Of a DNA stretch of 64,000 bases, positions 38,461 to 39,122 are shown in pieces. The stretch lies in the NCBI GenBank assembly GCA_029781795.1, contig JAKOWB010000231.1:1-64000 (forward strand). The letters are read 5' to 3'. Numbering within the stretch: position 1 is the first letter of the stretch; each line of letters opens with the position of its first letter. The position numbers were made by a program, and so were the translations under genes. The DNA comes from Pseudomonadota bacterium. Lineage in GTDB: Bacteria; Pseudomonadota; Alphaproteobacteria; Kiloniellales; JACOMY01. The notes under the pieces were generated by a model. It saw nothing but the letters and a program-made list of their open reading frames with translations, made no database searches and had not been told where the DNA came from.

Positions 38461-39084
38461 ATGCCGGACTTCGCCCACGAGAAGCGCCTGGGACTCGCCG
38501 AAGGCCGGCTGGTCGTCGGCATCGACGAGGCGGGCCGCGGCCCCTGGGCCGGCCCGGTGGTCGCCGGCGCCGCGCTGCTGCCGGCCAGGGGGCTGGGACG
38601 CAGCCTGCGCCGGGACCTGGACGATTCGAAGAAGCTGGATGCGGCGACCCGCGAGCGGCTCTACGACGCGCTGCTGGGCGAGGCCCGGGTCGCCATCGGC
38701 GTCGCCACGGTGCGCGAGATCGACAGCCTCAACATCCTGCAGGCGACGCTGCTGGCCATGCAGCGGGCCTATGCCGCCCTCGGCATCGCGGCCGAGGCGG
38801 CACTGGTGGACGGCAACCGGGCACCGGCCCTGCCCTGCCGCGCCGTCACCCTGATCGAGGGCGATTCGCTCTCGCTCTCCATCGCCGCCGCCTCGATCGT
38901 GGCAAAAGTGTCACGCGACCGCATGATGTGCGATCTGGCCCGGCGTCATCCCGGCTACGGCTGGGAGCGCAACAAGGGCTATGGAACGGGTGAGCACGCG
39001 GCCGCCCTACAACATCTTGGGGTCACCGCGGAACATAGGGAGTCCTTCGCACCGGTCCGCCGCGCCCTCGGTCTAACTGATTGA
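38461..39084 (+). CDS. rnhB: Ribonuclease HII
   Basis: 207-residue enzyme that nicks RNA-DNA hybrids and removes single ribonucleotides. The active site is intact: VVGIDEAGRGPWAGPVVAGA (D and E), the DDSKKLDAATRE block, VDGNRAP and IEGDSLSLSIAAASIVAKVSRD. There is no ribosome site; CTAGCC lies 8 bases before the ATG, so the message may be leaderless. It is followed 72 bases later by ccrM, an order common in alphaproteobacteria. Confidence 0.95.
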   Translation: MPDFAHEKRLGLAEGRLVVGIDEAGRGPWAGPVVAGAALLPARGLGRSLRRDLDDSKKLDAATRERLYDALLGEARVAIGVATVREIDSLNILQATLLAMQRAYAALGIAAEAALVDGNRAPALPCRAVTLIEGDSLSLSIAAASIVAKVSRDRMMCDLARRHPGYGWERNKGYGTGEHAAALQHLGVTAEHRESFAPVRRALGLTD

Positions 39085-39122
39085 TTCAACGCGGACTATT
39101 GACGGCGAGTCAGGCCTGACTC
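39083..39122. promoter_or_regulatory. GANTC cluster and palindrome upstream of ccrM
   Basis: Three GANTC methylation sites lie within 40 bases: GATTC 39083-39087, GAGTC 39107-39111 and GACTC 39118-39122. The last two cap a perfect 16-bp palindrome GAGTCAGGCCTGACTC (39107-39122). TTGACG at 39099-39104 is a good -35 box, placing the palindrome between -35 and a weak -10. This fits control of ccrM by its own methylation, possibly through GcrA. Confidence 0.65.

Follow-up and report, generated by a model that had tools for sequence, protein, structure and literature searches.

The window, the whole 64,000-nt stretch of DNA analysed here, contains the rnhB gene, which encodes ribonuclease HII, followed on the same strand by a ccrM gene. 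Three GANTC sites (hereafter referred to as sites U, A and B) lie upstream of the ccrM start codon, and two of them form the ends of a perfect 16-bp palindrome (Table 1). The ccrM product contains Pfam domains PF01555 (N6_N4_Mtase) and, at its C terminus, PF18755 (RAMA), the combination that marks CcrM-type orphan GANTC methyltransferases, together with a DPPY motif. It matches the NCBIfam model NF050803 over residues 5 to 350 of 356 (E value of 1.5e-183), with a score of 609.5 bits that stays below the CcrM equivalog cut-off of 830 bits; the model may be centred on Caulobacter. We assign the encoded enzyme as a CcrM-type methyltransferase that is predicted to methylate GANTC, and the more than twofold depletion of this sequence in the window (90 sites found in positions 1–64000 versus 217 expected from shuffles) is compatible with, though not specific support for, the assignment. 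GANTC is scarce in the window overall, yet clustered ahead of ccrM.

Table 1 Features of the rnhB–ccrM locus, in window positions
Feature	Position	Strand	Basis or remark
rnhB (ribonuclease HII), gene 5′ of ccrM	38461..39084	+	NCBIfam NF000595, 228 bits, above cut-off
Site U, upstream GANTC (GATTC within TTGATTC)	39083..39087	.	begins 16 bp above the −35 box
−35 box TTGACG	39099..39104	+	conserved frame with sites A and B
Site A, GANTC (GAGTC)	39107..39111	.	in the −35/−10 spacer
Perfect 16-bp palindrome GAGTCAGGCCTGACTC	39107..39122	.	site A + N6 + site B
Site B, GANTC (GACTC within TGACTCA)	39118..39122	.	final C is the first −10 base
−10 box CAAGCT (conserved form C-A-N-N-N-T)	39122..39127	+	17-bp spacer to TTGACG
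Predicted transcription start	39134 (± few bases)	+	from the −10 position
Likely ribosome-binding site GGGGGGAG	39141..39148	+	from sequence; 8 bases ahead of GTG
ccrM (GANTC adenine methyltransferase, 356 aa)	39157..40227	+	profile matches; GTG start codon at 39157

A generic σ70 promoter scan of positions 38300–39400 called no promoter, probably owing to the weak −10 box CAAGCT, and the predicted promoter was instead assigned by comparison across genomes. We compiled three sets of ccrM upstream regions, comprising 99 class-wide loci, 54 loci from relatives and 80 named loci. The class-wide sample covers 142 genomes, 102 of which have a ccrM match; 99 upstream regions were analysed, leaving out three partial matches (G067, G092 and G168). 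Among the 58 genomes of the relatives set, 54 contributed the DNA upstream of a true ccrM gene and four (G001, G032, G043 and G049) did not. The named set consists of the best 80 of 587 confirmed candidates and therefore leans towards close relatives. The sets overlap in part, with 226 distinct upstream stretches in 231 loci, and one duplicate (L001, identical to L082) was excluded. The rnhB gene precedes ccrM at 77 of the 99 class-wide loci, 46 of the 54 loci from relatives and 77 of the named loci (best 80 of 587).

GANTC sites within the predicted ccrM core promoter

Upstream of ccrM, GANTC reaches densities of 2.9–4.5 per 200 bp, as compared with 0.1–0.4 in coding or farther-upstream DNA, and the sites keep a fixed register with a TTGAC element. 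Site B occurs at an offset of 19 from TTGAC in 49/54 loci from relatives, 37/99 class-wide loci and 66/80 named loci (best 80 of 587), and sites A and B occur together in 43/54, 31/99 and 64/80 (best 80 of 587), respectively. Neither site is found at these positions in 0/54, 37/99 and 4/80 (best 80 of 587). When the same regions were dinucleotide-shuffled 100 times, site B averaged 0.10–0.15 loci per set and the pair at most 0.01. The 31 class-wide loci that carry both sites belong mostly to different families, and among the named loci the placement inside the core promoter spans at least two orders (Rhodospirillales and Rhodobacterales).

All 150 loci with site B, representing 141 distinct 60-mers, have an A at +24 and a T at +28 from TTGAC (141/141 of the 60-mers), although the search scripts demanded neither base. 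This A and this T correspond to the best-conserved pair of positions in −10 boxes. Their invariance, 17 bp after TTGACG, indicates a core promoter whose −10 box starts at the last C of site B. The comparison identifies the conserved unit as a putative σ70-type core promoter, composed of TTGAC, a 17-bp spacer and C-A-N-N-N-T, and not as the palindrome. The sequence-only reading had described the palindrome with a GANTC at either end, a third GANTC at 39083 and a −35 box TTGACG at 39099; all were confirmed in the sequence, the −35 box by its conservation as well. Its proposal that the GANTC sites lie within the ccrM core promoter gains support from the recurrence of the arrangement in other genomes.

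Site A accompanies site B in 137 of the 150 loci. At loci with site B at its offset, A–B spacings of 7–13 bp were searched and solely 9–12 bp found, 11 bp being the commonest (16/31 class-wide, 36/43 in relatives and 58/64 among the named loci, best 80 of 587). The middle base of site A can be any of the four letters across all loci that have the site, which points to GANTC recognition, rather than contacts with the σ factor, as what keeps site A in place. Of the 190 loci that have site A or site B, 158 also have a counterpart of site U, a GANTC whose start lies 8–24 bp above TTGAC (peak at −15). The flanks of the two core sites differ: across 103 distinct 60-mers, C precedes site A in 74%, T precedes site B in 93% and A follows site B in 100%.

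Many ccrM loci carry targets of CcrM at set positions within their core promoter, and most of the loci (225/231) have no exact CtrA full site.

Candidate regulators and possible methylation-sensitive control

CtrA drives ccrM in Caulobacter, where the confinement of CcrM to one part of the alphaproteobacterial cell cycle has mainly been worked out. In 1995, Stephens et al. reportedly located the GANTC sites of the Caulobacter ccrM gene on the 3′ side of a class II flagellar (CtrA-type) promoter. By contrast, the sites in the window lie inside a −35/−10 promoter that has no CtrA full site. The full site TTAA-N7-TTAA was absent from the 350 bp upstream of ccrM in the window, even with one mismatch allowed, and CtrA control, which the sequence-only reading had mentioned for Caulobacter, finds no support at this promoter; we rejected CtrA as its driver. 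Exact full sites occur in 6 of the 231 loci; in the class-wide set there are 5, against 1.6 expected from shuffles. With one mismatch, the site is found at 24/99 class-wide loci (16.6 in shuffles), 4/54 loci from relatives (2.1) and 7/80 named loci, best 80 of 587 (8.6), with no clear excess in the latter two sets. Weaker CtrA sites may exist elsewhere, as Brilli et al. used a weight matrix and predicted that CtrA controls ccrM in most of their cluster B Rhodobacterales (PMC2877005). The DnaA box TTWTNCACA was likewise not found in the window; it occurs at 10/99 class-wide, 0/54 relatives' and 2/80 named loci (best 80 of 587), versus 1.5, 0.4 and 1.5 expected, and DnaA may control ccrM in some members of the class but not at this locus.

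The expected reader at this promoter is the σ70 cofactor GcrA. The genome that contains the window (G000) has two PF07750 matches, of 123 and 81 bits, in an assembly that is 7.8% contaminated, and GcrA is encoded in 56 of the 58 genomes of the relatives set, this one included. The ccrM promoter resembles GcrA/σ70 promoters in having a GANTC between the −35 and −10 boxes. Published work places a GANTC near or between these boxes at ctrA P1, podJ P2 and mipZ also, where GcrA binds the methylated sites (PMC3667746, PMC4287350), and describes Caulobacter start sites with a GANTC between −10 and −35 as activated at 40–60 min (PMC4287350) and GcrA as promoting open-complex formation at methylated promoters (PMC7403470). 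Of the GcrA-enriched cell-cycle start sites of Caulobacter, only 31% lie within 50 bp of a GANTC (PMC4287350). The ccrM promoter differs from the known GcrA/σ70 promoters in its two precisely placed sites with an additional upstream one, in its location at the methyltransferase's own gene, in its imperfect match to the extended GcrA motif YGAKTCK and in its occurrence without a GcrA match above cut-off. Site A (CGAGTCA) and site B on the other strand (TGAGTCA) fit the Y and the inner K of this motif and depart from it at the last base, an A; in Brevundimonas, apart from a slight tendency towards a preceding C, no such preference is reported (PMC7987155).

We favour the reading that the ccrM promoter is methylation-sensitive and autoregulatory, probably with GcrA as a likely helper and a self-limiting pulse as the output. 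Under this reading, a housekeeping-type −35/−10 promoter with site A in its spacer, site B running into the −10 box and site U just upstream would be methylated by CcrM, its own product. Passage of the replication fork would leave the sites hemimethylated until CcrM re-methylates them later, so that promoter activity could track both replication of the locus and CcrM output. The −10 box is weak and site B constrains its first base to C, features that suggest a promoter in need of help; GcrA, which favours methylated GANTC, would be the likely helper in this genome. The preferred direction is that the promoter would be on while hemimethylated and lower once fully methylated. We infer this methylation response, the role of GcrA as reader and the direction of control from the literature on GcrA-type promoters and from a review that describes two GANTC sites in the Caulobacter ccrM promoter and raised ccrM expression accompanying hemimethylation (PMC10073500); together these favour methylation-sensitive autoregulation over the other readings, although read-through from rnhB may also supply transcripts. 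If so, the circuit would be a concrete and testable one, with the methyltransferase gene itself reporting on replication and enzyme level.

The sign of the feedback could be the opposite. GcrA–σ70 would then need sites A and B methylated, full methylation would raise ccrM expression and loss of methylation would shut it off. GcrA is encoded in the genome, it prefers fully methylated over hemimethylated probes (PMC3667746) and ftsZ is reported to reach its highest activity when fully methylated (PMC8116508). However, nine class-sample genomes carry both sites without a GcrA match above cut-off, and a promoter requiring the mark made by its own product would risk a locked-off state. We consider this positive feedback less likely.

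GcrA may also be dispensable, with the methyl groups acting directly on RNA polymerase, or with CcrM bound at sites A and B blocking the promoter. PF07750 matches above cut-off are lacking in the genomes behind 23 of the 99 class-sample loci, and the layout does not track GcrA: site A and/or site B is present at 15/23 loci without GcrA and 47/76 loci with it (Fisher P = 0.81), and both sites at 9/23 and 22/76 (P = 0.44). Co-occurrence was therefore rejected as support for a role of GcrA. Moreover, site B shares one base with the −10 box, an overlap that would put a methylatable adenine of the lower strand at about −13. Against this, in some genomes scored GcrA-negative the gcrA gene may be divergent or missing from the assembly. 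A looser search in the 15 genomes gave weak matches in eight, none of them above cut-off, and the absence of GcrA is provisional as some genomes are incomplete. We regard control without a dedicated reader as a minority possibility. A further reading, on which we place still less weight, is that the core promoter might be an ancient, GcrA-independent methyl sensor read directly by RNA polymerase–σ70 or by CcrM; GcrA would then have been added later or lost lineage by lineage, with the promoter layout unchanged. Genomes with the layout and no GcrA match above cut-off provide natural tests of the need for GcrA.

Two side observations concern the distribution of GcrA. In G058, a genome that has both sites in its ccrM promoter but lacks a full GcrA match, the weak match from the looser search, an 88-aa open reading frame (L244, positions 1459–1725, minus strand) resembles just the C-terminal σ-binding part of GcrA, at 23 bits and below cut-off. 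Conversely, G001, which belongs to the same family as the window's genome and is 94% complete, has a GcrA match but no true ccrM gene, its best ccrM match showing 41% identity across residues 97–265; the methyltransferase has possibly been lost and the reader kept.

Control of this general type has precedents. Restriction–modification methyltransferases of the CfrBI type have their own recognition site overlapping their own promoter, so that feedback by the product is possible. The ccrM promoter is alike in that the enzyme's target site lies within the enzyme's own promoter, whereas CfrBI belongs to a restriction–modification system and CcrM is an orphan cell-cycle methyltransferase; the literature found by our search held no mention of CfrBI. 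The Caulobacter crescentus ccrM promoter, as portrayed in the review (PMC10073500), is alike in having two GANTC sites at a GANTC methyltransferase gene. Brilli et al. tallied the GANTC sites of each promoter and judged that extra predicted sites do not permit methylation control to be deduced (PMC2877005), and Tomasch et al. counted the GANTC sites of ctrA. GcrA-type promoters and methylation sites at ccrM are both already known in kind. The literature searched, as far as its texts were accessible, holds no description of the fixed two-site layout at ccrM, of its core-promoter placement across orders and families or of its occurrence without a GcrA match above cut-off, which does not establish absence from print.

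The palindrome

The sequence-only reading had treated the symmetry of the two sites as a design principle. The 16-mer GAGTCAGGCCTGACTC occurs once in the 5,433,793-base genome, and the window contains seven perfect 16-bp palindromes, which are not rare at 71% G+C. A palindrome would arise whenever the two self-symmetric sites sit 11 bp apart and the bases between them happen to be complementary. Among 110 distinct site pairs, four form full palindromes. In related ccrM upstream regions the two-site layout recurs; in the 54 loci of the relatives set, the palindrome itself is found solely at the window's own locus and at L084.

Recognition of the palindrome by a symmetric regulator, as a functional dyad, draws on the fact that the four full palindromes come from four different families, all of them within the 78 distinct spacing-11 pairs at ccrM, against 1.2 expected from a composition-respecting permutation within sequences (P about 0.009) or 0.19 from column shuffles. 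However, pairwise complementarity hardly exceeds expectation (80/312 versus 72.6, P = 0.11), a further set of 32 pairs, which includes four from outside ccrM loci, gave 0 full palindromes, though about 0 were expected there too, site A shifts relative to site B and the usual flanks of the two sites are unlike. We rejected the palindrome as a conserved unit on these covariation, composition-corrected and replicate tests, and a dyad function appears highly improbable; we conclude that the palindrome follows for the most part from the 11-bp spacing of two sites that are each self-symmetric, and a weak excess is left unexplained. An RNA hairpin or terminator acting in rnhB read-through transcripts is the least plausible reading and was rejected, for although the palindrome could fold into a six-pair stem, it lies upstream of the predicted start, its interior is not conserved, the fold z-score is −0.92 relative to shuffles (positions 39085–39170) and no terminator-like site was found at it.

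Genome scans and a second promoter type

We searched genomes with the 29-bp pattern TTGAC-N3-GANTC-N6-GANTC-A-N3-T, using no protein information. In the order scan, 44 of 61 genomes gave a match, 39 of them at ccrM, and in the class scan 50 of 385 genomes gave 51 matches, 47 at ccrM; the reversed-control pattern gave zero matches in both scans. The 47 assignments comprise 30 of 30 loci tested, 13 of 17 fetched stretches and four made by coordinates, and the four remaining matches lie in G204 (twice), G302 and G397. Omitting the −10 bases, the shorter pattern matched 19 of 142 genomes, with 16 matches at ccrM and three elsewhere; the 385 genomes apparently include these 142 of the class sample. 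The signature can locate ccrM promoters where annotation is lacking and matches little else, although its reach is only 50/385 class genomes.

No second exact match was found in the window's own genome, and a wider family of such promoters there was rejected, as three one-mismatch matches were no more than in the control. GANTC-N6-GANTC occurs at eight places in its 5,433,793 bases and the reversed control also at eight; the spacing is thus not enriched genome-wide.

The five order matches away from ccrM all belong to the genus g22 (G038, G041, G044, G050 and G057) and share a near-identical string; in the one of the five that was examined (L173), the full ccrM-type pattern precedes a pterin-4a-carbinolamine dehydratase gene. 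A second recurrent promoter with two GANTC sites, TTGAC-N4/5-GANTC-N7-GATTC, its match ending TGTGATTC, was found in 25 of 58 genomes, with no match in the window's own genome, and is carried by L168–L172 and L174, which belong to the same order as the window. At L170, L171 and L174, it begins 35–36 bp ahead of the start codon (ATG) of a DivIC/FtsB-like septum gene, a designation that rests on a PF04977 test of the L168 protein and on likeness for the others; this placement suggests methylation control of cell division.
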